Source: an uncultured Clostridia bacterium (GTDB lineage: Bacteria; Bacillota; Clostridia; TANB77; CAG-465). From it: a stretch of 42,922 nucleotides of DNA. The notes under the pieces are model-generated. The model was not told the DNA's origin. It ran no database searches and was given only the letters and a program-made list of their open reading frames with translations. Numbering within the stretch: the first letter of the stretch is position 1; every line of letters starts with the position of its first letter. Location of the stretch: NCBI GenBank assembly GCA_944386635.1, contig CALXBV010000045.1, forward strand, positions 1 through 42,922. Reading direction: 5' to 3'. Shown in pieces: positions 3,863 through 37,161 of the stretch. The translations under genes were made by a program, and so were the position numbers.

Positions 3863-4786
3863 ATGTTAGGAGAAAAAATAAAAAAATATAGAGAAGAAAA
3901 GAAAATGACTCAATTAGAAGTGGCAGAAGTATTAGGAGTAAAGCCAGCTACAATATCTAAATACGAAGCTGGAACTTTAGAACCTAATATCGATTCATTA
4001 AAAAAGTTAGCTGAATTATTTGAAGTTTCAGTTGATGAACTATTAAAAGAAGATGAATTTGATGTTTCTAAAATTAATGTATTAGAAGTCTTAATAGAGC
4101 AAAAGGAAATGAAACTAAAAGGAAATTTGTATCATAATACACAGATAATTTTTGCATATAATACAAACCACATTGAGGGAAGCAAACTAACAGAAGATCA
4201 AACAAGATATATTTATGAAACGAATACTTTATTAACAGAAAAAGAATCAATTACAAATTTGGATGATATTATTGAAACTGCCAATCATTTTAAATTAGTT
4301 GATTATATGCTAGATGTAGCAGATAAAGAGCTAACAGAAGAAATGATTAAAGAGTTTCATAAAATATTGAAAGAAGGAACGTCAGATAGTAGAAAAGATT
4401 GGTTTAATGTGGGTGACTATAAAAAGTTAGCAAATGAAGCAGGAAATATGAAAACCACATTACCTAAAAATGTGCAAAAAGATATGAAAAAACTAATGCA
4501 ATGGTATAATTCATTAGTAAAAATAACAATAGAAGATATAATAGAATTTCATTATAGGTTTGAATGTATTCACCCATTTCAAGATGGAAATGGTAGAGTC
4601 GGTAGAATTATAATGTTTAAGGAATGCTTAAAAAATAATATTATTCCATTTATTATATTAGATAAGGATAAATTATTTTACTATAGAGGATTAAAAGAAT
4701 ATAAAAGTAAAAAGGGTTATTTAACAGATACTTGTTTAAATGCCCAAGATCAATATATAAGATTAATAGAATATTTTTTGAAATAA
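3863..4786 (+). CDS. XRE-family regulator fused to a Fic domain
   Basis: A 307-residue protein. Residues 3-60 are an XRE/Cro helix-turn-helix (TQLEVAEVLGVKPATISKYE). Residues about 80-300 are a Fic domain with a complete active-site loop HPFQDGNGRVGR at 237-248. Fic enzymes transfer AMP or another phosphate-containing group onto proteins. A TNHIEG sequence at 101-106 matches the [S/T]xxxE[G/N] inhibitory motif that, when N-terminal to the Fic core, keeps the enzyme autoinhibited. The HTH suggests the protein also binds DNA, perhaps its own promoter. A TATAAT lies at 3828-3833 and AAAGGAG precedes the ATG. It is a single gene in a defence-like neighbourhood, with no separate antitoxin visible. 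Confidence 0.88.
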   Translation: MLGEKIKKYREEKKMTQLEVAEVLGVKPATISKYEAGTLEPNIDSLKKLAELFEVSVDELLKEDEFDVSKINVLEVLIEQKEMKLKGNLYHNTQIIFAYNTNHIEGSKLTEDQTRYIYETNTLLTEKESITNLDDIIETANHFKLVDYMLDVADKELTEEMIKEFHKILKEGTSDSRKDWFNVGDYKKLANEAGNMKTTLPKNVQKDMKKLMQWYNSLVKITIEDIIEFHYRFECIHPFQDGNGRVGRIIMFKECLKNNIIPFIILDKDKLFYYRGLKEYKSKKGYLTDTCLNAQDQYIRLIEYFLK

Positions 4787-5245
4787 ATGATGTTTTTATA
4801 AAGAAGTAATAGCTGGAATATTATTATCATTTTAATATATTTATAAATTTGATAGAACTTTGAATTAATTTTAATTATTTATTAATGTAACAAATAATTA
4901 AAAAATGTCTTAAAATACACACAGATATTCTATAAATTAGAGCTCTCGTAAATGCTGAAATACCAACAAAAGTTCTAATTTCCACAAACTTACAAAAAGT
5001 GGTCAAGTCTCGTTCATAACCCAAAGGGATAATTTTAAAGTTAAATGAGAATAAAATGTAGATAAAAATCATATTAAAAAGCATTCAAGATTAAGAAATG
5101 AATGCTTTTATATTTTTAGTATTTTAAATAAAAATATAAGGTGGCAAATTTTTTTTAGTTTATGGTATAATAATTTTGTAAAAAATATAACTATTTTTTT
5201 AAGTCTTATCTAAAGATGAAAATATTAAAAAGGGAAGTGATACAA
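4787..5245. other. Intergenic region between fic and mgtA
   Basis: No gene that I can support lies here. A hairpin at 5077-5109 with T-rich sequence downstream could end a transcript. The stretch 4910-5040 is noticeably less A+T-rich than its surroundings and holds a 69-codon minus-strand frame without an SD, so a remnant or an RNA is possible. A TATAAT at 5166-5171 with a weak TGGCAA upstream (18-base spacer) is the probable mgtA promoter. I see no M-box-like Mg2+ riboswitch. Confidence 0.5.
5077..5115 (+). terminator. Rho-independent terminator
   Basis: A 10-bp stem (AAAAGCATTC / GAATGCTTTT) with a 13-base loop, followed by ATATTTTT. No clear gene ends just before it; fic ends about 290 bases upstream. 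Confidence 0.55.
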
Positions 5246-7867
5246 ATGATACAGCTATTTGATATTAAGAAAAAAGTAAAACAAATGAAAAATATAGATA
5301 AAGAATTACTAGAAAAATATAAAGAGATATCTAAAAAGAGTAAAGAAGAAATCTTAAAAGATTATAATGCAAAAGAAAATGGATTATCTCAAAAAGAATA
5401 TGAGAAAAGATTTGAAGAAGATGGACCAAATATAGTAGTTAAGAATAAGAAAAAAAGTTGGATATCCTTTTTTATAAAAGCATTTAATGATAAATTTATA
5501 TATATTTTGTTACTACTTGCAATAATTAATTTTATATTAGATGATAAATTAGGTTCAGGCATAATAGTAGGAATAGCAGTTGTTAGCGCTTTTATTAAAT
5601 TTTGCCAGAATTATTCTACATATAAATTTAACGAAAAATTAAAAGCACAAATTTATTCTAGTACTAATGTTGTAAGAAACGGAAAAGAAAAAGAAGTTAG
5701 AGTAGAAAACATAGTAGTAGGGGATATTATAAAATTAAATGCAGGCTCAATAATACCAGCAGATATAAGGTTAATAGAAAGTAAAGATTTATTCTTAAAT
5801 CAATCAGTATTTACTGGTGAGAGTGTTTTGGTTGAAAAAACAACCGATGGAAATGAGCCTAATGGGCTATTTGATATAAATAACATATGTCTTATGGGCT
5901 CAAGTGTAGTAAGTGGAAGTGGAACAGCAGTTGTAATTCAAAAAGGCTTTGATACATATTTAGGAAGAATGAGTAAAGATTTAGATAATAAAAAAGAATT
6001 AACTAACTTTGAAAAAGGAATGAATTCAATTACAAAGTTATTAATTAAATACATGGTAGTAGTATCAATAGCTGTATTTATAATTTATTCTTTTATAAGA
6101 CATGATTTAGTAGAAGCATTATTATTTGCACTTTCTGTTGCAGTTGGTATAACACCGAGTATGTTACCAATGATAGTAAATGTTAATTTAACAAAAGGAA
6201 GTAAATCATTAGCTAAAAAGAAGACTTTGGTAAAAAATATACAATCAATACAAAATTTAGGGGCAATAGATGTTTTATGTACAGATAAAACAGGAACATT
6301 AACCCAAGATAGAATAACATTACAAAAATACATAAATGTAATGGGAGAAGAAGACTTAAATATTTTAAAATATGCATATTTAAATAGTTACTATGGAACA
6401 GGAATAAAGAACTTAGTAGATAAAGCAGTAATAGCATATGGAAATGAACATAAAATAAAGCAAGTATTAAAAGAATATGAAAAGATAGATGAAATTCCTT
6501 TTGATTATACAAGAAAGAAAATGAGTGTAGTTGTAAAAAATGAAGACGGATATAGAATGATAACTAAAGGTGCGATAGAAGAAATATTAAAAAGTTGTAG
6601 CAACGTAAATTATAAAGGTGAAATAAAGCCAATAACAGATGATTTAGTTAAAAAAATTGAAAAAAATGCAGATAATTTATCTAACATGGGAATGCAAGTA
6701 ATTGCATTAGCGACTAAAGATGAATATCCTGGAGTTAATGTATTTAATACAAGTGATGAAAGTGAGATGACATTTGTTGGATATGTTGCCTTCTTAGATC
6801 CACCAAAAAAAGATGTAAAAAGAACTATTAATGAGTTAAAAAGAATAGGAATAAAAACTAAAATATTAACAGGTGACAATGCATATGCAACAAAGAATAT
6901 ATGTAGTATAGTTGGATTAAGGTCGGATAAAATAATTACAGGAATTGAATTAGATAAAATGACTGATGAGGAATTATCAAAGGCTGTTGAAGAAGTAGAT
7001 GTGTTTGCAAGATTAAATCCATTACAAAAAGAAAGAGTAGTAGATACATATAAGAAAAATGGACATGTAGTAGGATATATGGGTGATGGAGTAAATGATG
7101 CACCATCACTTCATAAGGCAGATGTAGGAATTTGTGTAGATTCTGCAACAGATATAGCTAAAGAGGCAAGTGATATTATACTATTAGAAAAAAGTTTACA
7201 GGTAATATATGATGGTGTAATTGAAGGAAGAAAAGTGTATGGAAATATTATAAAATATATGAAAATGGCATTGAGCTCAGATTTTGGTGATGTATTTAGT
7301 ATATTAATAGCAAGCATTTTCTTACCGTTTTTACCATTACTTCCGATACAAATGTTAATACAAGACTTTTTATATGATATATCACAAATAGCAATTCCAT
7401 ATGATGATGTAGATAAAGAGTTCCTTGAAAAGCCAAGAAAATGGGATACAAAAGGTCTTGGCAAGTTTATGAATGTAATGGGAATAACAAGTTCGGTAAT
7501 AGATGTATTTGCATTTTTAATCTTTTGGTTTGTATTAGGATATAATAGTGTAGATAAACAATCATGGTTCCAGACAGCATGGTTTGTAGAATGTTTAATA
7601 AGTGAAACAATGATAATCCATTATATAAGAACAGCAAAAATACCATTTATACAATCAAGAGCAAATAAGTTTTTAACAATATCAACAATTATAACAATTA
7701 TAGGTACGATATTAACACCAATTATATTACACAATGTACAATCATTTAATTTTGAAATATTACCAGGAGTATATTATTTATATGTAATATTGTTACTTGC
7801 AATATATACTGTACTTGTCCAATTTATAAAGAAAATTTATATAAGGAAAAATGGTGAGTGGTTATAA
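5246..7867 (+). CDS. mgtA: Magnesium-importing P-type ATPase (MgtA type)
   Basis: A P-type ATPase of about 873 residues, near the usual MgtA length. Visible elements are the TGES actuator loop, the phosphorylation motif DKTGTLT (Asp347), KGA in the nucleotide-binding domain, and GDGVNDAPSL in the hinge. The TM4 motif is 'VGITPSMLPMIV', close to the VGLTPEMLPMIV of class P3B Mg2+ transporters and unlike the PEGLP of Ca2+ pumps. About ten membrane segments are expected, with a C-terminal group between residues 680 and 860. I chose ATG 5246 because AGGGAAG lies 8 bases upstream; an in-frame ATG at 5216 has no such site. Substrate is inferred from family. It appears monocistronic, with its own terminator. 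Confidence 0.82.
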   Translation: MIQLFDIKKKVKQMKNIDKELLEKYKEISKKSKEEILKDYNAKENGLSQKEYEKRFEEDGPNIVVKNKKKSWISFFIKAFNDKFIYILLLLAIINFILDDKLGSGIIVGIAVVSAFIKFCQNYSTYKFNEKLKAQIYSSTNVVRNGKEKEVRVENIVVGDIIKLNAGSIIPADIRLIESKDLFLNQSVFTGESVLVEKTTDGNEPNGLFDINNICLMGSSVVSGSGTAVVIQKGFDTYLGRMSKDLDNKKELTNFEKGMNSITKLLIKYMVVVSIAVFIIYSFIRHDLVEALLFALSVAVGITPSMLPMIVNVNLTKGSKSLAKKKTLVKNIQSIQNLGAIDVLCTDKTGTLTQDRITLQKYINVMGEEDLNILKYAYLNSYYGTGIKNLVDKAVIAYGNEHKIKQVLKEYEKIDEIPFDYTRKKMSVVVKNEDGYRMITKGAIEEILKSCSNVNYKGEIKPITDDLVKKIEKNADNLSNMGMQVIALATKDEYPGVNVFNTSDESEMTFVGYVAFLDPPKKDVKRTINELKRIGIKTKILTGDNAYATKNICSIVGLRSDKIITGIELDKMTDEELSKAVEEVDVFARLNPLQKERVVDTYKKNGHVVGYMGDGVNDAPSLHKADVGICVDSATDIAKEASDIILLEKSLQVIYDGVIEGRKVYGNIIKYMKMALSSDFGDVFSILIASIFLPFLPLLPIQMLIQDFLYDISQIAIPYDDVDKEFLEKPRKWDTKGLGKFMNVMGITSSVIDVFAFLIFWFVLGYNSVDKQSWFQTAWFVECLISETMIIHYIRTAKIPFIQSRANKFLTISTIITIIGTILTPIILHNVQSFNFEILPGVYYLYVILLLAIYTVLVQFIKKIYIRKNGEWL

Positions 7868-20097: not shown

Positions 20098-20136
20098 AAA
20101 AAACTGAGCATATTTTTATATGCTCAGTTTTACTAT
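20098..20136. terminator. Bidirectional terminator
   Basis: A 12-bp stem (AAACTGAGCATA / TATGCTCAGTTT) lies between convergent genes, with A-rich sequence on the left and T-rich on the right, so it works for both strands. Confidence 0.85.
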
Positions 20137-22151
20137 TTTCTAAACTTTAATTTATCTTTAAGAGTAAAATTAAAATCAATATTGCAAAGTCTTTTTGCAG
20201 CATCTAAGTTTAAAGATACTTTGTTTCCAGAATATTTAGGATCAAATTCTAATCCACCTGGAATCTCATTGCTTAAATAAGTGGCTTTATTGTGATCAGG
20301 GGCTGTATAAATTAATCTGTTTTCTTTAATATTAATTTCAAAATTGTTCCTTTCAAGTTTCCATGCTGTTTTTAATTTTTGTATAAGATTTTGACAAGTA
20401 ATCTTAGAAGAATAGTAATCTCCGTCTCTTGTAGCTACTTCTGCATAGTCTGGTATATATCCTAGATATTCTTTAAAGATATCTCTTATAACTTTAGATG
20501 ATTCAAAGAATATATCCGGGTTATATTCATTATCAGTTTTGATTTTTTCTACCATTTGATTAACAATAGGAAACATTCTTTTTAAATATTCATTATAGAA
20601 ATCATTTGTTATTTTAGATATTCCAGTACGAATAATTTTAGTATTATTATTGGCAAGTATTCTATCTATGCTTATATTTATCGGACAACTAAATACTCTT
20701 TTAACTAGTTCTTGTTTTACACATTTTATATCATTAGATGTCATTAATATTGCTGGATAGGTTAAGTTCATATTTTGTATTTCTAACTCGTCATATTTTA
20801 TTAATTCTTCACCATGTTCCTTGAATTTTGACTGTGGTACTTCATCAAATATTATTGGTATTCCATGAATTAAATCTTTAAGCGCAAAAATTTCAGTTTT
20901 TTTAAAATTGTTTCCGTTTTTTATAGGAATATCTTTACCACTAAGCATTTTTGAAAGCATTTTAGCAAACATTGTTTTTCCACCATTACTAGCTCCATAA
21001 CAAACAGCATATATAGGAAAGTTTACAAGACTTCCACCATTAGTAAATTCATGATATCTTAAATATGCAAAAAAAGGAGAAGCAAAGAACCAGTTAGCTA
21101 GTAAAAAATAATTTCTTTTTGCATTTTTTACATCACCAGCAGCTATAGAGTCAAAATTATTAAAAAATGTATCAAAAAATTTTAATGTGTTGGTAATATT
21201 TTCTGAATTGATATTATTTAAATCTAATTGTTTATCATTTAAAAAGGCTGTATTATTATCATAATTTAAATTTAATTGTGGATATACTAGTCTTTTTTCT
21301 TTTTCATCATTATATAGTTTTTTTATATCTAATTTTATCTTATTATTATTTTCTGGTTTTAATATGAATTTGGATTTATTTAAGGTAGATGGCATTACTG
21401 ATTTATATTTCCTAGCCAAATTTCTAACGTCGGTAGTAAAAGCAATATCATTGCTTTTGTTATTATTAATTGTTATTTGTTTCTCATTTAGTAATAATGA
21501 TGGGATAATATCATTAATTGGAATATTTCTTTTCATATTAGATATTTCTGCTTTAGTTAGAGCTGTATCGCAAGAAAATTTGAAAATATTAAAATTATTA
21601 AAATAGTAGTTAAAAGCCTTATCATCATTATTAAATACAACAAATTGTTCACGCTGAATACCATTAAAAGCAATATAGGATAGATTAGCTGATCCTATAA
21701 TCACTCTACTGTCATTTGTTGATGAGTTTTTAAGAATATAAATTTTCTCATGTGATTTAGTAGAACGAGAAATATAAAAAGTTAAAGAATCGTCAGAAAT
21801 TAAAGAAATAATCTTTTCTTTAGATTTATTTGAAGATATAGTTTTTATGATTCCTTCTTTTATCTTGCTTTGAAATGCACAAATATATTCCAAACTACTA
21901 TCTAATACAGTACTGTTACCAAATATAATTTCACATTTTTTAAATTTTTCTGCTATTACTGGGATAAAACTAATACTTGATGAATAAGTAATTGCATAAA
22001 GTTCATCATATCCATTAAATAGTAAATTATAATTTGTTTCTTCGCTATCAACAAATTTAGCATTTGTAACTTGAATAGTATTTTTATCATTTAGTGTTTC
22101 GTTTTTTTCTACTTCTTCTTTTGTATTAAACATATTTACTTGCTCATTCAT
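20133..22151 (-). CDS. PLD-family nuclease fused to a P-loop (SF3/AAA-like) ATPase
   Basis: A 672-residue soluble protein. Residues about 45-190 form a phospholipase-D-like nuclease module with one HxK motif (His134-Glu-Lys136, SHEKIYIL) and GSANLS at 153-158, as in PLD-type restriction nucleases; two chains would be needed for one active site. Residues about 340-510 are a P-loop ATPase with Walker A GASNGGKT (386-393), Walker B IIFDE (433-437), a TSN sensor (471-473) and a likely arginine finger Arg485. The spacing resembles superfamily 3 helicases of phages and plasmids. A winged-helix-like C-terminal part follows. ATG 22151 has GAAAGGAG upstream; the longer frame to 22205 lacks one. It stands alone with its own promoter. 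I know no family with this order. Confidence 0.78.
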   Translation of the reverse strand: MNEQVNMFNTKEEVEKNETLNDKNTIQVTNAKFVDSEETNYNLLFNGYDELYAITYSSSISFIPVIAEKFKKCEIIFGNSTVLDSSLEYICAFQSKIKEGIIKTISSNKSKEKIISLISDDSLTFYISRSTKSHEKIYILKNSSTNDSRVIIGSANLSYIAFNGIQREQFVVFNNDDKAFNYYFNNFNIFKFSCDTALTKAEISNMKRNIPINDIIPSLLLNEKQITINNNKSNDIAFTTDVRNLARKYKSVMPSTLNKSKFILKPENNNKIKLDIKKLYNDEKEKRLVYPQLNLNYDNNTAFLNDKQLDLNNINSENITNTLKFFDTFFNNFDSIAAGDVKNAKRNYFLLANWFFASPFFAYLRYHEFTNGGSLVNFPIYAVCYGASNGGKTMFAKMLSKMLSGKDIPIKNGNNFKKTEIFALKDLIHGIPIIFDEVPQSKFKEHGEELIKYDELEIQNMNLTYPAILMTSNDIKCVKQELVKRVFSCPINISIDRILANNNTKIIRTGISKITNDFYNEYLKRMFPIVNQMVEKIKTDNEYNPDIFFESSKVIRDIFKEYLGYIPDYAEVATRDGDYYSSKITCQNLIQKLKTAWKLERNNFEINIKENRLIYTAPDHNKATYLSNEIPGGLEFDPKYSGNKVSLNLDAAKRLCNIDFNFTLKDKLKFRK

Positions 22152-22185
22152 TTTATTTTCTCCTTTCGCATATTTTAATATTTGC

Positions 22186-22214
22186 ATTATACCATTATAT
22201 TGCAAAAATGTAAA
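22186..22214 (-). promoter_or_regulatory. Promoter of the PLD-ATPase gene
   Basis: On the minus strand, TTTACA (22209-22214) and TATAAT (22186-22191) are separated by 17 bases, about 35 bases before the ATG at 22151. Confidence 0.75.
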
Positions 22215-23309: not shown

Positions 23310-24515
23310 ATGAAGTTAATTAAAATTCCCGAAGATAAATATTATGAATATAAAATTCAAGCAATGTTTGATTGTTATAAGTGGGATCCACAGTTTTGTG
23401 ATACTAATACTTTATCAAGATATGTATTGATATTAACTAAAAAGGAAAATGAAGAAATAATAAAGTTGACAGAAAGTTTAGATAGAGAGACTAGATTAGC
23501 AGAAGAATATTTAAATAAAAATATAAATGTTGCCAAAAAACTAGCGCTTCCTAGAAAGATTTTAGAACAAATACCTAATATGCAAAGTTATGATAAAAGT
23601 CAAAATATTAGGCTTATGAGATATGATTTTCATCCAAGTACAGATAATAACTGGGTTGTAACTGAAGTAAATAGTGATTGTCCTGGAGGTTTTGCAGAAA
23701 GTTCACTTTTACCAAATATAGCACGTAAAATAATTGACATGACTGAGTTAGAGTATAATTCATTTGGAGAAAAAATGGTAGAAGCTATAAACAAAAAATT
23801 AAACAAAAAAGGTACAATTATGATGGTACATTGTACTTGTTTTAGTGATGATAGGCAAGTTATGCAATATATGGGAGATAGACTTGAAAAAGAAGGATAT
23901 AAGATTATTTATGGTGCGGCAGATCATATTAAATTTAAAGAAAATAAAGCTTATTGTATTTTAGATAACAATCAAATGAGTATAGATTTAATTTTTAGAT
24001 TTACCCCATTGGAATGGCTTATTCAAATGAAACCACGTAGATGGGATGGATATTTCAGTAGCATAACTAAATCTTGTAATCATCCTATTAGTATATATGC
24101 TCAAAGTAAAAGGTTTCCGTTTGTTTGGAAAGACTTGGAGAAAGCAGGTATTAGTATGAAAACGTGGAAAAAATTACTACCAGAGACTTTTGAAGTAAAA
24201 AATTTTAGCTTAGATGAAGGATTTATATATAAACCAGTTTATGGTAGAGTAGGAGAAAAAATTTCAATTAAAGAAGCATGTAAAGAAGATGAATATGAAA
24301 AAATTTTAAAAGATGTAAAAAAACATCCAAAACAATATTTGTTACAAAAGAAATTTCAAAGCAAGCCACTAATAGGTGAAGATGGAAAAGAATATCACAT
24401 TTGTCTTGGATCATATACTATAGAAGGAGAGCATGCTGGGTATTATGCACGAATGAGTATATATCCAAGAATTGATTCTTATGCAGAAGATATTCCAGTT
24501 TTAATTGAAAAATAG
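23310..24515 (+). CDS. Glutathionylspermidine-synthase-family ATP-grasp ligase
   Basis: A 401-residue protein of the GSP synthase C-terminal family (PF03738 type). Diagnostic stretches are RYDFHPSTDNNWVVTEVNSD (104-123) with CPGG after it, and the ATP-grasp part near the end ('EGFIYKPVYGRVGEKISIKEA' and 'QKKFQSKPLIGEDGKEYHICLGSYTI'). Enzymes of this fold join a carboxylate to an amine with ATP; in the namesake reaction glutathione is coupled to spermidine. It lacks the amidase domain of E. coli Gsp. It begins a three-gene operon ending in a homospermidine-synthase-like gene, which suggests a polyamine as the amine substrate. GAAAGTGAG precedes the ATG. The YgiC/YjfC ligases of unknown substrate are the alternative assignment. 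Confidence 0.82.
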   Translation: MKLIKIPEDKYYEYKIQAMFDCYKWDPQFCDTNTLSRYVLILTKKENEEIIKLTESLDRETRLAEEYLNKNINVAKKLALPRKILEQIPNMQSYDKSQNIRLMRYDFHPSTDNNWVVTEVNSDCPGGFAESSLLPNIARKIIDMTELEYNSFGEKMVEAINKKLNKKGTIMMVHCTCFSDDRQVMQYMGDRLEKEGYKIIYGAADHIKFKENKAYCILDNNQMSIDLIFRFTPLEWLIQMKPRRWDGYFSSITKSCNHPISIYAQSKRFPFVWKDLEKAGISMKTWKKLLPETFEVKNFSLDEGFIYKPVYGRVGEKISIKEACKEDEYEKILKDVKKHPKQYLLQKKFQSKPLIGEDGKEYHICLGSYTIEGEHAGYYARMSIYPRIDSYAEDIPVLIEK

Positions 24516-24525
24516 AGGGAATAAA

Positions 24526-25188
24526 ATGAGTGGAAGAGAAGTATTTAAAATATATGCACCTGCTAGCGCAAAGTGGACAGACTGGGTACGACCAGTACTA
24601 TTTGTTGCAATTGACACTTATAATAGAAAGCCTATTGGCGATTGGCAGGATAGAAAAGTAATGTTTATAAAAGAATACCAACAAGATACAGCTATATTTA
24701 TTGATTTACCCGGTAAAGAGAGTATAGAACTGGGAATAAATTTAGGGTATTTTGGATATAGGCCAATTCCAGTCTTTAATGGAACTGATGAACAGCGAGG
24801 TTCACAAGCTACTACTAATACTTATTTAATAGAAAGTTGCTTAATAAATGGTAGTGAAAAACTAAAAAATATACAACTAAAAAGTGATGCAAATCCAGCT
24901 TTTTTACTAGATAGTTATCGAACTAATAGATATAGAACTAAAGAATCGATTTTCGATAATAGTTGGGATTTATATAAACAAGATGTTCCATCAGCCAAGT
25001 ATTTTAAGCAAAATGGTATAAATAAAATAATAATTGTTGGAGATACAATTCAAAGAGACATAAAAAAAATTTTGTTAAAATTTCAAGAAGAAGGAATTGA
25101 AATTTATATAACAGACGGATATGTATTTCCAAAAAAAGTCATATTAACAAAAACAATAAAAGAACGATTTGAAAGGGAAGAGATATAA
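24526..25188 (+). CDS. Unknown protein in the polyamine operon
   Basis: A 220-residue soluble protein that I do not recognise. The N-terminal half has a beta-rich pattern with 'PVLFVAIDTYNRKPIGDWQ' and 'TAIFIDLPGKESIELGINLGYFGYRPIPVFNGTDEQRGS'; the C-terminal half contains 'KIIIVGDTIQRDIKKILLKF'. No classical nucleotide loop or metal motif stands out. The ATG at 24526 has AGAGGGA upstream and lies 10 bases after the ligase stop; the homospermidine-synthase-like gene begins three bases after its stop. This tight packing makes a role in the same pathway likely. It could supply or modify the substrate of the ligase, but nothing in the sequence shows this. Confidence 0.7.
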   Translation: MSGREVFKIYAPASAKWTDWVRPVLFVAIDTYNRKPIGDWQDRKVMFIKEYQQDTAIFIDLPGKESIELGINLGYFGYRPIPVFNGTDEQRGSQATTNTYLIESCLINGSEKLKNIQLKSDANPAFLLDSYRTNRYRTKESIFDNSWDLYKQDVPSAKYFKQNGINKIIIVGDTIQRDIKKILLKFQEEGIEIYITDGYVFPKKVILTKTIKERFEREEI

Positions 25189-25191
25189 AAT

Positions 25192-26649
25192 ATGATTGAA
25201 TTTAGTAATAAAATAGTACAATTTGGCTTTGGAGCAGTAGGAAAAAGTTTTTTTGAAAAAGTTTCTAAAGAAATAAAATTTGATAAAGAAAAATATTTTG
25301 TAATTTCTAGAGATAAGCTTGAATATACATTTTTTCTTGAGCTTGGAGGAAATATTGGAAATTTTATTGTAGCTGATATTAATAGAGAAAATTTTAAAAA
25401 AATATTTTCAAAATATCTGAATGAGGGAGATTTACTAATTGATTTTGCTGATAGTGTTGGTACAAAAGATTTTATAGAATGGTGTGCTAATGAAAATATA
25501 ATGTATCTAAATACAGGAGAAACAGATTGGAGTGATAATTGGTATAATATTTTTGATGAAAATTTGAAAAAAAATGAATTACGAAATCAATTAAAACACA
25601 AAAGTAATGTGAATAAGTATCCAATTGTAGTACAACATGGCAACAATCCGGGATTGGTATCTCATTTTGTAAAAGCAGGTCTTGAATATATTGTAAAAAA
25701 ACAATTTAAAAATAATCAGGAATATAATGATTTTTTAAAAGAAAATAAATTTAATGAACTTGCTATGGCACTTGATTTAAAAGAAGTTCATGTAAATGAT
25801 AATGACTATCAAGAAATTAAAGGTAAATTTGACGAAAACAAGCTATATAGTACATGGTCAGTTGATTCATTTTTTTTCGAAATGTTAAGTGAGGCAACTG
25901 CTAATATTGGTACAAGTGAAAAATTTAATTTTGAAAAAGAATGTAAAACTCTAGATTTAAAAAATGGCTTTTTAGAATTTAAAGATATAGCAATTAATAA
26001 AATGGGAAAGACTTATTGTTCTAAAGGTATGTTTGAAGGATTTTTAGTACCTCATGAAGAGACTATTACTATTGCAAAAGCTCTTGAAGTAATGAAAGAG
26101 GGAAAGGTTATATATAGACCAACAGTTATTTTTTTGTATTCTCCTTGCGATTTTGCGGTAAAATATCTAGAAAAAGCTAAAGTAAACGATTATCTCTGTC
26201 CAAATATAAATAAGCCACAAGATGATAATATTTCAATTATAAGAGGTTTTAAGTACCCTGAAAAATCAGAGATTGTTTATAAAGAAAATATAAAACGAGG
26301 TACGGAGTATGTAGGAGTATTATTATTAGGAAGTAAGTTTGATCCAGTATGGATAGGAAATAGAATAAAAAAGAATTTTTTGTATAAAGATAAAAAAGCA
26401 TCTTTTTGGCAAACACCAACAATAACACCTGTTGCTATGTCGGCCTTATCTGCTACTTGTTGGATGATAAAGCATAAAGATAAAGGCGGAATATATTTTC
26501 CTGATGATATTAATGAATATAAGGATATAATTAACTTTGCAGAAAAATATATTTCAAAAACAATTTACAAAACTATTAGTAAAGAGAAAATAGAGCATAC
26601 TCTTAATATTAGATTGGATTGTTTACAACTAAAAGATATATTATTATAA
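25192..26649 (+). CDS. Homospermidine-synthase-like enzyme
   Basis: A 485-residue protein of the saccharopine dehydrogenase / homospermidine synthase superfamily. The N-terminus has a Rossmann GxGxxG (Gly12, Gly14, Gly17 in VQFGFGAVGKSF), and later come 'LNTGETDW' and 'HGNNPGLVSHFVKAGL', both characteristic of homospermidine synthases. These NAD-dependent enzymes couple two putrescines, or putrescine with spermidine, into homospermidine and release ammonia or diaminopropane. The length fits bacterial homospermidine synthase (about 480). It is the last gene of the operon and is followed by a strong terminator. Carboxyspermidine dehydrogenase is an alternative, but it lacks these motifs as far as I know. 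Confidence 0.82.
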   Translation: MIEFSNKIVQFGFGAVGKSFFEKVSKEIKFDKEKYFVISRDKLEYTFFLELGGNIGNFIVADINRENFKKIFSKYLNEGDLLIDFADSVGTKDFIEWCANENIMYLNTGETDWSDNWYNIFDENLKKNELRNQLKHKSNVNKYPIVVQHGNNPGLVSHFVKAGLEYIVKKQFKNNQEYNDFLKENKFNELAMALDLKEVHVNDNDYQEIKGKFDENKLYSTWSVDSFFFEMLSEATANIGTSEKFNFEKECKTLDLKNGFLEFKDIAINKMGKTYCSKGMFEGFLVPHEETITIAKALEVMKEGKVIYRPTVIFLYSPCDFAVKYLEKAKVNDYLCPNINKPQDDNISIIRGFKYPEKSEIVYKENIKRGTEYVGVLLLGSKFDPVWIGNRIKKNFLYKDKKASFWQTPTITPVAMSALSATCWMIKHKDKGGIYFPDDINEYKDIINFAEKYISKTIYKTISKEKIEHTLNIRLDCLQLKDILL

Positions 26650-26657
26650 TAAAAAAA

Positions 26658-26716
26658 GAGCATTATTGAAGTGAACCCTACTATTTCACTTCATTATAAT
26701 GCTTATTCTTTTATAT
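26658..26716 (+). terminator. Terminator of the polyamine operon
   Basis: A long two-part hairpin: GCATTAT and TGAAGTGAA pair with TTCACTTCA and ATAATGC across a short loop, followed by TTATTCTTTT. Confidence 0.82.
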
Positions 26717-26733
26717 TATAGTTTTAGGTATTA

Positions 26734-28911
26734 TTAATGGCCACCGCCGCCACCGCCACCTCCGCGGCCACCGCCACCATAACCATGTCCACCAAATCCG
26801 CCGCCTCTTGAAGAGGTGTGGATAGAATGCCCAAAAGCTCTAGATGTTCTATGAAAGTTACGTGAGTGAATATAAAAGTTATGATTTAATATTGGACTAC
26901 TATCAATGTTTAATTCTACAGCATGTATCTTTATAGCTTTTATAACTTTTTCTGAGATACCAAAAGCGGTTGCATAAATTAAATACTTTTCCCATAAAGG
27001 CAACTCGTAAACTTCTCTTTCTTTAATTAAAGTATTACTGTTTAAGAAATTATATAATCCATACCATTTTGCTTGTTCATTAGCACCATATTGTGTAAAT
27101 AAAATTAGATTACTTGATTTTATAGTTAAATAAAAATATTTCCATAAACAAGTAATACCTAAAATAGTATAAGCACCAAAGCTTAATGACATAGGTGTAA
27201 AATAAGAAATACAATTTACAACAATCAATAAAAGTAATCCTAAGCTTAAACTTAATTTTGCTGCTTTTTCAAGTTCTTTTTTTGGCGCATCATATTCTGC
27301 GGTTTGAAAATATCCATTCATTACACCATTTTCTAAAATAGGCTTCTTTTCCATATCTTTTACAAATGAATTTGTATATTCATAATCGGTATTTATACAT
27401 TTTTGAAATTGATTTATTGTAATTGAATTATTATAAGCTCTAGAGTGTCTTTCTAACAATTCTAAATAAAGTCTTTCAGAAGTTGTAAGTGGTTCTAAAG
27501 TATCACCAGTATTTTCATTTATAGATGTATAAATAGGCTCAGGTGAATAATCTGGAGAATCAGTAAATGTAGGAGTTGTAGAATCTGTACGTATTGGTTC
27601 TATAGAGATTACTGTATTTGAATTGCTCCAGTCACCATTATTATTTAATTTAGTAATTTTAACATATTTTTTTCTTACCAAGCTAAGTAAAATTGCTGCA
27701 TATTCTTCTTGCTTTTCTTTATTTTCATTAAATGGATCCTTCATAAATACTAACTCTGAAGCAAATATTGGATCTAAGTCACTTGGTATTTCTCTAAAAT
27801 AATCAAAATCTATTTCTGGCTCATAAAAAGTATATTTTTTCTTAATTTTTTTATATTTATTTATTGCACCGATAACTATCAAAACAGAGCCAAATATAGA
27901 AGCAATTAACAATAGTGTTTTATAGATATTAAATGTTATATTTTCTGTTTCATAGTATTCATTTTCCGCAATACATTCATCTAAAACATTTTGACTTGAA
28001 TATATATTATTAGGTGCGTATTGTGTGAAAATATGTTTGTCATCTCCATATGCAAGTAAGCAGAACTCTAAATAGCGATTACTATAGTCAAATTTTAAAT
28101 CAGATTTATTTAAATTAATTGAGAATGTATGATATCCAGGGTTTATAGAATCTGATTCAATGTATGGAAATCTACTATTAGATGTACCGAATGTATATGC
28201 ATAGTATGTAGAAGGCATTATTTCATTTGGTATAAGAATTTGAGCTTTATAAGAATTTAATTTTGTGATAGTATCTCCAGAATACATAGACAAATATAAT
28301 TCAGAACAATCGTTATATTTTAATGCTGCATTGTTCATTGTATATACAATTTTAAAAGTCAGTTTTTCTCTATATGTCCATGGAATATATATTAGTAAAG
28401 ATTCATCATTATCTGGATATGTTTCTGAACCGTCACTATGGTGCCAACGCATAGTTGAATTTTCAGTATAGTCATAATCTTCCCAATACATTTTAGAAGT
28501 CTCTAGATAAGGTATTTCTTGTCCATTGTCTAGAATTTGCGTAACTGATTTAACATCGTAAGTTACTTTTAAACCATCAACATACTCTTCTGGAAGCTCT
28601 CGCCATAATTCTTTATATGTGTTAGACATTGAGCCTGCATGTACATCAAATGTTAGATATTCTGTAATTTCAACACTGGCACTTCCATCTGGATCATCAT
28701 GTAATACAGAAGTATATTCAATATCTGTTAAATTACAATAATCTGTTGGATTTAAGCTAAATCCATCAAGTCCAAAATCTTCCCAAGTATATCCATCTGA
28801 TATTATTATAAATAACATAAATAGAAAAAAAAGTATAAATGGAAAAAATAAAATAACAATACCTTTTATTGTTTTTTTTATTTTTCTAAGAAAATATTTT
28901 AAATATTTCAT
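26734..28911 (-). CDS. DUF2207-family membrane protein with Gly-rich tail
   Basis: A 725-residue membrane protein. An N-terminal hydrophobic helix lies at about residues 16-37, followed by an external DUF2207-type beta domain (about 55-300; 'EITEYLTFDVHAG', 'TYKELWRELPEEYVDGLKV'). A helix at about 330-350 and a cytoplasmic part follow. Two or three helices come next around 555-610, then a soluble segment, and a tail that ends in GGGGRGGGGGGGGH. The Gly-rich end is typical of this family. Its function is unknown; roles at the cell envelope are presumed. AGGAG precedes the ATG. The tail codons are unusually G+C-rich for this genome because they are glycine codons. Confidence 0.82.
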   Translation of the reverse strand: MKYLKYFLRKIKKTIKGIVILFFPFILFFLFMLFIIISDGYTWEDFGLDGFSLNPTDYCNLTDIEYTSVLHDDPDGSASVEITEYLTFDVHAGSMSNTYKELWRELPEEYVDGLKVTYDVKSVTQILDNGQEIPYLETSKMYWEDYDYTENSTMRWHHSDGSETYPDNDESLLIYIPWTYREKLTFKIVYTMNNAALKYNDCSELYLSMYSGDTITKLNSYKAQILIPNEIMPSTYYAYTFGTSNSRFPYIESDSINPGYHTFSINLNKSDLKFDYSNRYLEFCLLAYGDDKHIFTQYAPNNIYSSQNVLDECIAENEYYETENITFNIYKTLLLIASIFGSVLIVIGAINKYKKIKKKYTFYEPEIDFDYFREIPSDLDPIFASELVFMKDPFNENKEKQEEYAAILLSLVRKKYVKITKLNNNGDWSNSNTVISIEPIRTDSTTPTFTDSPDYSPEPIYTSINENTGDTLEPLTTSERLYLELLERHSRAYNNSITINQFQKCINTDYEYTNSFVKDMEKKPILENGVMNGYFQTAEYDAPKKELEKAAKLSLSLGLLLLIVVNCISYFTPMSLSFGAYTILGITCLWKYFYLTIKSSNLILFTQYGANEQAKWYGLYNFLNSNTLIKEREVYELPLWEKYLIYATAFGISEKVIKAIKIHAVELNIDSSPILNHNFYIHSRNFHRTSRAFGHSIHTSSRGGGFGGHGYGGGGRGGGGGGGGH

Positions 28912-30707: not shown

Positions 30708-31940
30708 ATGGCAAGAAAAAAAGGTAGTAACGAAGGTAGCGTATATTATAGAAAAGACAGAGGTAAATGGATAGCACAATATTATAATTATCATCCAATA
30801 ACTTTAGAAAAGGTGCATAAAGAAAAAAGCTTTTCTACTGAAGAAGAAGCTAAATTATATTTAAAATCTATAATGTTTCAAAAAGAAAATCCTATTTTTA
30901 TAGAAAAACATGGAATACCGCTAAAAGATTTAATGAAGTCTATATTACAAAATAAGTATGAAACAAATATGATTTTTGATGCGCAATATGAAAGAGTACA
31001 ACGAACTATAAAAATATATGTAAAGGTGCTTTGGTAGAAAAGAATATTAGAGATATATCTTCAGAAGAAATACAGAACTTTATGAATATATATAAAGATT
31101 TAAGCGATTCAAGTATCAAGAAAATATTTGAACAGTTTAATCCAGCATTTAACTATGCACTAGATAGAGGATGTATTTTTAGAAATCCTATGAAACAAGT
31201 TATTAGACCTAAAAGTAATAAAAAAGATAAATTAGTAAGAGCTATGACTTTAGAAGAAGAAAATCAGTTTGTAAACTATTTACAAAACAAATCAATTAAA
31301 GAATGTCCATATAAAAATGAATTTTTAATTCAACTATTTATTGGGTTAAGAATTGGGGAGTGTTTAGCATTATCTCATCACGACATAGATTTAATGAATA
31401 GAAAAATATATGTTCATAAAACTTTAACTAGACGTATTAATGGTTTAATTTCAATGAGTAACTCTCCAAAGACTCAAGCTGGAAATAGATTTTTACCTAT
31501 TCCAGATTCATTATACCAATATATAGTAGAGCAAATGAATTATAGTAATGCACAAGAAAATAATGAAGAAAAACTATTATTTAAACCCAAACAGAATAAA
31601 TATACCACTCCTGAAAATGTTAATAGAGCTTTAGGAAGAATTTTAGATGAGCTTGGCATAGAACATATGGCATCCCTTGTTTAAGGCATACTTATGCAAC
31701 TCGTGCTATTGAGGCAGGTGTTACACCAGTTGTATTGTAAAAGCTCATGGGACATACAGATGTATCTATTACTTTAAATACTTATACATCTGTTTTTGAT
31801 AGATATAAAGAAACAGAACTTGAAAAAGTAAATGAATATTATATGAAGCAAAATTTATTAAATTCTAAAAAAAAAATTTATTATTAGAAGAAAAAACAAA
31901 TATATCAAATACTAATGAAGAAATAGATAAAGAAATATAA
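30708..31940 (+). pseudogene. Decayed tyrosine integrase (paralogue of the 35427 integrase)
   Basis: The frame starts with MARKKGSNEGSVYYRKDRGKW and aligns along its whole length with the intact integrase at 35427. It is broken three times. A one-base deletion near 31010 shifts the frame at 'RTIKIYVKV'. A second one-base deletion at about 31675 destroys the HxxR catalytic box (the relative has HSLRH). A nonsense TAA at 31738-31740 replaces the Gln codon before LMGH. The remaining frames (30708-31037 and 31031-31684) are pieces of one gene, not two genes. GGAG precedes the ATG. It once mobilised an element with TGTGTTAATT arm-type sites, which still flank it. Confidence 0.9.
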
Positions 31941-35426: not shown

Positions 35427-36698
35427 ATGGCAAGAGAAAAAGGTAGCAATGAGGGTAGTGTTTTTTATAGAAAAAATAGAAATAAATGGATAGCACAATA
35501 TTATGATTATGATCCATTAAAACAAAAAAGAGTACAGAAAACTAAAAGTTTTGATACTGAAGAAAAAGCTAAAAAGTATTTGCAATCAATTATGTTTCAA
35601 AAAGAAAACCCAATATATATTGAACATAATGGTATACCTTTAAAAGAATTAATGAATACTATAATTCAAAATAAGCTTGATACAAATATGATATCTGAGT
35701 CACAATATCAAAGAGTTCAAGCTACATTAAAAAGTATATCAAAAGGCAATTTAGTAAATAAAAATATAGATACAATTACTGCAGAAGAAATACAAAAATT
35801 TATAAATACATATAAAGACTATAGTGATTCTACAATAAAAAAAGTTATAGGACAGTTTAGACAAGCATTTAAATATGCTTTTGATAGAGGATATATAACT
35901 AGAAATCCTATGTCTCAAGTTATAAGACCTAAAAGCAATAAACCTCAAAAAGTAGTTAGAGCAATGACCTTAGATGAAGAAAATAAGTTCGTAAATTATC
36001 TACAGAATAAAACTTTAAAAGAATGTCCATACAGAAATGAATTTTTAATTCAATTATTTATGGGCTTAAGAATAGGCGAATGTTTAGCTTTAGATATTCA
36101 TGATATAGATTTGATGAATAGAAAAATATACGTGCATAAAACTTTAACGCGTAATAGTAATGGTAATATAATGCTAAGCAAAACTCCAAAAACGCAAGCT
36201 GGAAATAGGTACTTACCTATTCCTGAGTCGTTATATCCTTACATTATAGAACAGATGAAATATTGTGAGTCACAAGAAGACAATAACGACAAATTATTAT
36301 TTAAGTCTCCACAAAATAACTATACAGATGCTGAAAATGTAAATAAGGCACTATCTAAAATATTAAAAGAATTAAATATAGAACATATGTCTTCTCATAG
36401 TTTAAGGCATACTTATGCAACTAGAGCAATTGAAGCTGGTGTTACTCCAGTAGTATTACAGAAATTAATGGGACATACTGATGTTACTATAACACTTAAT
36501 ACATATACCTCTGTATTTGATAAATATAAAGAAACAGAGCTTGAAAAAGTAAATCAATATTATATAAATAAAAATCTATTACAAACTCCCGCTTCTAATA
36601 ATTTATTGATAGATAATGAAGTACCTGTAATTGAATCTAAAGCAGATATAATAAAAGATGATAAAGTAAATGAGAATAATATGGAGTATTATAGATAA
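35427..36698 (+). CDS. Tyrosine integrase of the tRNA-Pro element
   Basis: A 423-residue phage/ICE-type integrase. The N-terminus (MAREKGSNEGSVFYRKNRNK, with 'WIAQYYDYDP') is an arm-binding AP2-like domain, the middle (about 65-165) the core-binding domain, and 175-380 the catalytic domain. Catalytic residues are Arg215 (GLRIGE), His324 and Arg327 (HSLRH), His350 (LMGH) and Tyr360 (NTY). It integrates and excises circular DNA at an attachment site, here most likely the 3' end of the adjacent tRNA-Pro gene, 390 bases downstream. AAAGGAG precedes the ATG. No excisionase or conjugation gene is visible, so excision may depend on other factors. It appears intact. Confidence 0.92.
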   Translation: MAREKGSNEGSVFYRKNRNKWIAQYYDYDPLKQKRVQKTKSFDTEEKAKKYLQSIMFQKENPIYIEHNGIPLKELMNTIIQNKLDTNMISESQYQRVQATLKSISKGNLVNKNIDTITAEEIQKFINTYKDYSDSTIKKVIGQFRQAFKYAFDRGYITRNPMSQVIRPKSNKPQKVVRAMTLDEENKFVNYLQNKTLKECPYRNEFLIQLFMGLRIGECLALDIHDIDLMNRKIYVHKTLTRNSNGNIMLSKTPKTQAGNRYLPIPESLYPYIIEQMKYCESQEDNNDKLLFKSPQNNYTDAENVNKALSKILKELNIEHMSSHSLRHTYATRAIEAGVTPVVLQKLMGHTDVTITLNTYTSVFDKYKETELEKVNQYYINKNLLQTPASNNLLIDNEVPVIESKADIIKDDKVNENNMEYYR

Positions 36699-37084: not shown

Positions 37085-37161
37085 TGGTCGGAGTGACAGG
37101 ACTTGAACCTGCAACCCCATGGTCCCAAACCACGTGCGCTACCAATTGCGCTACACCCCGA
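37085..37161 (-). tRNA. tRNA-Pro (anticodon UGG), CCA encoded
   Basis: The minus strand gives TCGGGGT as the 5' acceptor strand, pairing with ACTCCGA (one G-T), then a D-arm with AGCGCAATTGGTAGCGCA, and the anticodon loop TTTGGGA on a GTGG/CCAT stem, so the anticodon is TGG (Pro). The T-arm contains GGTTCAAGTCC, and CCA is encoded at 37085-37087. It is the integration target of the adjacent integrase; its last bases recur at 29963 and 30094. Element DNA replaces sequence only beyond the 3' end, so the tRNA stays functional. Confidence 0.95.

Follow-up and report, generated by a model that had tools for sequence, protein, structure and literature searches.

A contig of 42,922 nucleotides from an uncultured Clostridia bacterium (GTDB lineage TANB77; CAG-465; GenBank assembly GCA_944386635.1, contig CALXBV010000045.1; analysed whole and here called the window) carries three genes in a row, encoding a ligase of the glutathionylspermidine synthetase (GspS) family (gss), a protein without a family (unk), and an enzyme of the homospermidine synthase family (hss), and a convergent gene for a DUF2207 membrane protein. 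Our analysis shows that these genes are a real unit of four, a cassette that moves horizontally among uncultured Clostridia. We consider it probable that the function of the cassette is, in general terms, polyamine ligation to peptides or proteins. The full statement, a four-gene module that acts at the membrane with the tail of its DUF2207 protein as the likeliest polyamine target, is more tentative, and we put its chances somewhat below even. Few proteins are known to carry a polyamine, the textbook example being eIF5A with its hypusine. If the proposal is true, a little-known protein modification would have a clear candidate target, and the cassette would exemplify a polyamine-ligase system that passes intact from one family of uncultured Clostridia to another.

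A first interpretation made without database searches (the sequence-only reading) had described gss, unk, and hss as tightly packed and followed by one terminator. This was confirmed by their coordinates (Table 1), by spacings of 10 bases between gss and unk and 3 bases between unk and hss, and by a single strong AT-rich hairpin 3' of hss; the conserved fourth gene of the unit, convergent DUF2207, had been overlooked. The hairpin was missed by a simple terminator scan, probably because it is AT-rich. It is flanked by hss and DUF2207, which converge on it, and therefore probably serves both.

We surveyed 238 genomes of the order and fetched and examined 33 loci. The ligase gene was found in 33 genomes and unk in 32, always adjoining gss (one spurious match in genome G079, with an E value of 6.5e-4 and containing stops, was excluded); in the sole gss genome without unk, gss is truncated by the contig end. 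Of the gss genomes, 28 have a homospermidine synthase-like gene, and a fragment of a further one lies at a contig edge beside a cassette-type DUF2207 gene. Within the genus of the window, 5 of 28 genomes have hss with gss and unk adjoining. Co-occurrence of the three genes, which the sequence-only reading had named as a check, thus bears out a conserved unit: all 33 loci have gss and unk side by side, and in 29 of them hss comes next. A convergent DUF2207 gene is present in 30 of the 33; of the three loci without it, two are cut by contig ends and one is decayed, so that every uncut intact locus carries it. Contig-edge cases aside, unk and hss occur solely with gss across the 238 genomes, and the genes flanking the four-gene cassette differ between loci. 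Four nearly complete genomes have gss, unk, and DUF2207 but no hss anywhere in the genome. Hence hss is dispensable to the cassette, and its loss where the other three genes are retained fits a role as supplier of the amine. Locus L042 (positions 4227 to 7582) has the look of a decaying cassette, with frameshifts in both gss and unk, an intact hss, and no DUF2207 gene.

The pairwise distances of the four cassette proteins correlate (r of 0.94 to 0.96). Furthermore, the window copy is closer to a genus of another family (87, 83, 87, and 84% identity for gss, unk, hss, and DUF2207, respectively) than to its own genus (85 to 86, 72 to 79, 81 to 83, and 73 to 81%). Taken together, these observations indicate that the four genes, DUF2207 included, were transferred as one unit. 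The same genus of the other family also contains a group whose gss is only 61 to 63% identical. Outside the order but within the phylum, one contig-edge unk match, downstream of gss, was found among 397 genomes. In that genome, which belongs to another class, gss and then unk adjoin a gene for a DUF350 membrane protein, a neighbor of gss seen only at this locus, which ties the gss-unk pair to the YjfL/YjfC-type neighborhood, where yjfC lies near yjfL.

The assignment of gss to the GspS family is well supported (86.9 bits against PF03738, cut-off 29.3). Its predicted model (predicted local distance difference test [pLDDT], 83; predicted template modeling score [pTM], 0.88) matches GspS-type ligases over the full length with Z scores of 28 to 32; among solved structures the closest is Escherichia coli YjfC (7uk6; Z 32.2, root mean square deviation 3.5 over 363 residues), followed by YgiC (7uk8; Z 30.2) and the E. 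coli glutathionylspermidine synthetase/amidase GspSA (2ioa; Z 29.2). The margin of YjfC over GspSA is small (3 Z units), and a profile of 32 gss copies ranks YgiC (E value of 2.8e-4) above GspSA (0.11). Residues R104, D106, E119, N121, K308, R313, and Q346 are invariant in the 32 copies and common to the E. coli relatives, in which R316, D318, E330, and N332 and the Lys/Arg/Gln set form the ATP and metal site. The fold and the ATP-site residues of gss are therefore established, while the coupling reaction is what the model would predict. YgiC and YjfC are reported to be peptide-spermidine ligases, as stated in the title of Pederick 2023 (cited in PMC12568646 and PMC10948618), and RefSeq product names label them likewise.

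The third protein is a member of the homospermidine synthase family, as the sequence-only reading had supposed, and by sequence not a carboxynorspermidine or lysine dehydrogenase. All 14 of its matches in the PDB are homospermidine synthases. Eight residues are reported to participate in the Blastochloris viridis enzyme, and five of them are kept, namely, N152, W222, E230, H288, and E290 (Asn162, Trp229, Glu237, His296, and Glu298 of the reference), which include the Glu-His-Glu triad (E230-H288-E290) and are invariant in 29 copies. Homospermidine or a close variant is thus the candidate product.

Tails rich in glycine recur beside ligases of the YgiC/YjfC type. In E. coli, YgiB ends in such a tail and YjfM ends in RGGYGRSSSARGHWGG; in the Achromobacter phage Motura, hss, a tailed DUF1190-like lipoprotein gene, and gss lie side by side, and the protein encoded between the two enzymes ends in RGGFGSTGSSFSAGG. 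We sampled 15 YgiC/YjfC-type ligase loci from Proteobacteria, Actinobacteria, and phages and defined the tail as [KR][GQ]G[FYL] within the last 40 residues of a partner encoded no more than three genes from the ligase. A partner with this motif is present in 13 of the 15 loci, compared with none of 118 control genes. Because the initial examples were known when the motif was set and the partner could be chosen from a few nearby genes, these figures are somewhat overstated, but the contrast is still large. Of the two remaining loci, the Methylobacterium one shows a near form of the motif (YGGFG), and for phage DSS3_VP1 no tail was found among the available genes. Among 388 open reading frames of loci from the order, the motif occurs once, in a cassette DUF2207 protein, and the immediate neighbors of the true GspSA in E. 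coli do not have it. The Motura "glutathionylspermidine synthase" (L146, positions 3977 to 6802) carries the TPTSL loop of YgiC/YjfC-type enzymes in place of the loop of GspS, which means that for this ligase, too, glutathionylhomospermidine may not be the true product.

The DUF2207 protein of the window scores 39.9 bits against PF09972 and 98.9 bits against PF20990. DUF2207_C is so common in the order (216 of the 238 genomes) that presence of the family alone says little. Against the window protein, however, cassette copies score at least 301 bits and the other DUF2207 loci compared score at most 110 (L178 in this comparison is the contig-edge cassette of genome G110); the cassette DUF2207 is thus a subfamily of its own, not seen outside the cassette among the copies compared. 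Hydropathy indicates hydrophobic segments near residues 18 to 36, 332 to 350, and 547 to 574. A second helix after the stretch at 547 to 574 would hold the tail in the cytoplasm, in agreement with the prediction for SMU.243 (PMC10457818). The tail of the window protein, of the form SRGGGFGG...GGH, resembles but differs from the [KR]GG[FYL] tails of the YgiC/YjfC partners, and among the cassette DUF2207 proteins only that of L040 matches the motif as defined.

We propose the following mechanism. The hss enzyme would make homospermidine or a close variant from diamines; the ligase would use ATP to convert a C-terminal carboxylate into an acyl phosphate and would join the amine to the carboxylate thus activated; the acceptor would be a peptide or protein with a Gly-rich tail, for which the cytoplasm-facing tail of the dedicated DUF2207 protein is the best candidate, as suggested by the conserved linkage and by the analogous tails beside YgiC/YjfC-type ligases; and unk would serve the ligase as an accessory. 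The unk protein has no match in Pfam, NCBIfam, PADLOC, or PHROGs. Its model (pLDDT 81, pTM 0.83) shows an alpha/beta fold for which structural searches gave no confident match (best Foldseek E value of 0.016; VIA-align Z of at most 4.8; none below 0.001 in a viral library). Its perfect linkage to gss suggests that it is an obligate accessory to this enzyme, with a specificity subunit or a presentation subunit as possible roles. The sequence-only reading had homospermidine made and coupled to a carboxylate at the expense of ATP; the pairing of an acid-amine ligase with an hss-family enzyme stands, whereas the peptide thiol that it tentatively named as acceptor is not supported.

Several observations weigh against this mechanism. 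(i) Concerning the tail, the cassette tail ends in His (Phe in L055) rather than Gly, the more distant cassette loci lack the exact RGGF element, and the tail is frameshifted in 11 of the 30 cassette DUF2207 genes, although the window copy is intact. DUF2207 paralogues far from any ligase also end in Gly-rich tails, so that the cassette tail is suggestive but no proof and such tails may be a general trait of DUF2207 proteins; the Gly runs of non-cassette DUF2207 proteins typically have no Arg preceding GG. (ii) The DUF1190 proteins paired with YgiC resemble exported lipoproteins, and it is difficult to see how a cytoplasmic ligase would reach them other than before their export. (iii) The ligase has no equivalent of the spermidine-binding Glu391 of GspS (see below), and amine binding may therefore differ. 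(iv) Most cassette genomes are without a sound putrescine decarboxylase or PotA: decarboxylases of the OKR type gave no sound match (pyruvoyl decarboxylases were not searched), those of the ornithine decarboxylase (ODC) fold gave a strong match in only 3 of 31 cassette genomes (these may be LysA), and PotA was above the cut-off in none of 45 (other transporters were not searched). The diamine is probably taken up otherwise or made by enzymes outside those searched.

In the 3' Gly-codon runs of DUF2207 genes, single-C insertions recur and disrupt the reading frame upstream of the conserved terminus; in 30 non-cassette loci these are GGC[C]GG (36 times) and GGA[C]GG (6 times). The loci concerned are L074 to L103, L041, L045, L046, L050, and L052, and the insertions and tail frameshifts may be a sequencing artefact, phase variation, or programmed frameshifting.

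Other explanations concern the acceptor, the amine, and the origin of the cassette. The sequence-only reading had favored a trypanothione-like thiol, in which homospermidine would be joined to glutathione or a similar peptide thiol. The family name and the pairing of hss with gss would agree with it, and glutathionylhomospermidine has been proposed for Proteobacteria and phage Motura (PMC9992855), so that the idea of a homospermidine conjugate made by an hss-gss pair was already published. In GspS, Ser337 aids attack by the N1 amine and Glu391 binds spermidine (PMC6272389); in gss, G126 takes the place of Ser337 and a gap falls opposite Glu391; the counterparts of Asp389 and Glu392 are D180 and D181. 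In addition, GshF was above the cut-off in none of the 31 cassette genomes (separate gshA and gshB and glutathione uptake were not searched). The lack of a GshF above the cut-off and the loss of both residues argue against a glutathione conjugate, as does, by its 3 Z units only, the better fold match to YjfC, and we consider the thiol improbable. A soluble, non-thiol conjugate of a polyamine with a small acid or short peptide, which the DUF2207 protein would merely export, sense, or respond to, has a better standing, although we regard it as a minority possibility. GspS-fold relatives such as Cp1B use small acids (PMC12568646), hss beside gss has already been read as a route to a soluble conjugate (PMC9992855), and ligase-free DUF2207 proteins are tailed as well; however, such a product leaves unexplained both the consistent [KR]GG[FYL] tails beside YgiC/YjfC-type ligases and the existence of a dedicated DUF2207 subfamily.

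It is also conceivable, if rather unlikely, that hss makes something other than homospermidine, such as another triamine or an opine-like amine, for use by gss, which is compatible with tail polyamination except for the identity of the amine. Three of the eight reference residues are replaced in all 29 copies, conservatively (Glu210, Tyr323, and Asp361 by D203, F314, and E372), and a stretch at about 338 to 362 is lacking in the solved enzymes; nevertheless, the triad, Asn162, and Trp229 are kept, and each solved relative found is a homospermidine synthase. A phage-defense or phage-carried metabolic cassette would accord with the patchy distribution, the transfer, the integrase genes nearby, and the YgiC-like ligases found in many phages. 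We give it little credence. PADLOC has no match for any of the four members, and a defense system was rejected on this ground; no close gss relative was found in the phages, plasmids, and viral contigs searched, and the sole phage hss match is that of Motura (22% identity), for which reason a phage origin or phage-carried copy was rejected as well.

A wider extension of the proposal is that YgiC/YjfC-type and cassette ligases attach spermidine or homospermidine to the Gly tail of a protein encoded next to them (DUF1190 in Proteobacteria, DUF2207 here), which would make C-terminal polyamination of envelope proteins a widespread and overlooked modification. We offer this as a speculation that may well prove wrong. 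Should these ligases indeed be encoded next to the proteins that they modify, a direct test of what the E. coli peptide-spermidine ligases act on natively comes within reach.

Table 1. Features of the cassette, in positions of the window
Feature	Position	Strand	Details
gss, GspS-family ATP-grasp ligase, synthetase domain only, without amidase domain	23310-24515	+	401 aa; PF03738 GSP_synth, E 2e-24
unk, family-less protein, predicted alpha/beta fold	24526-25188 (ATG start 24526)	+	220 aa
hss, homospermidine-synthase-family enzyme	25192-26649	+	485 aa; PDB 2ph5, E 2e-36
Terminator-like hairpin between convergent hss and DUF2207 genes	26658-26704	.	-18.9 kcal/mol, z -3.9 (26650-26733)
DUF2207 membrane protein, cassette-specific subfamily, convergent to operon	26734-28911	-	PF09972 and PF20990 above cut-off
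DUF2207 Gly-rich C-terminal tail SRGGGFGGHGYGGGGRGGGGGGGGH, candidate carboxylate acceptor	26737-26811	-	tail kept in cassette copies

The window belongs to a 1.46-Mb genome assembly that is 77% complete. A few kilobases downstream of the cassette lie two integrase genes (31031-31684 and 35427-36698, one of them short) and a tRNA-Pro gene (37085-37160), which could be one boundary of an integrated element. Upstream, a 690-residue protein (20133-22205, minus strand) combines a restriction nuclease domain of the PLD type (RE_NgoFVII) with another region that lies outside all Pfam models. Near the start of the window, a type I restriction specificity fragment, an integrase, and a helix-turn-helix (HTH)-Fic protein (135-584, 623-1426, and 3863-4786, respectively) are possibly a phase-variable restriction locus.

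The cassette shares features with several known systems. The DUF2207 protein SMU.243 of Streptococcus mutans has the same architecture and a Gly/Ser-rich C terminus, and its mutant shows lower tolerance of hydrogen peroxide and acid; in the accessible part of that report (PMC10457818) no link to a polyamine ligase is described. In the PspA-linked operons of PMC11237479, a GspS-related ATP-grasp ligase occurs with DUF350, DUF1190, and DUF2491 and is likewise tied to membrane proteins and polyamine metabolism. As far as that source is accessible, it proposes polyamine sensing or modification and does not mention Gly tails; the window cassette has hss and unk instead of PspA, DUF1190, and DUF2491. 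The homospermidine synthases of B. viridis, Legionella, and Pseudomonas are similar to the cassette enzyme over nearly the full length, with the triad, Asn162, and Trp229 in common, while the cassette enzyme differs in the three substitutions, the extra stretch, and the linkage to a ligase. E. coli GspSA shares the fold and the ATP-site residues of gss but has an amidase domain, Ser337, and Glu391 and neighbors without a tail, and the cassette genomes lack GshF above the cut-off.

The hss-gss clusters of beta-Proteobacteria and phage Motura (PMC9992855) are similar in having hss near a GspS-family ligase gene, in Motura with a tailed lipoprotein gene between them. Motura differs in gene order, in an hss only 22% identical, in a region without unk or DUF2207, and in a ligase closer to YgiC/YjfC. 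YgiC and YjfC of E. coli themselves have the full-length GspS-type ATP-grasp fold (Z of 30 to 32), no amidase domain, and a membrane-linked neighbor with a Gly-rich C-terminal tail. In contrast, gss is about 20% identical to them and has no Glu391 equivalent, its partner is DUF2207 where theirs are DUF1190 and DUF350, and the cassette adds unk and a linked hss.

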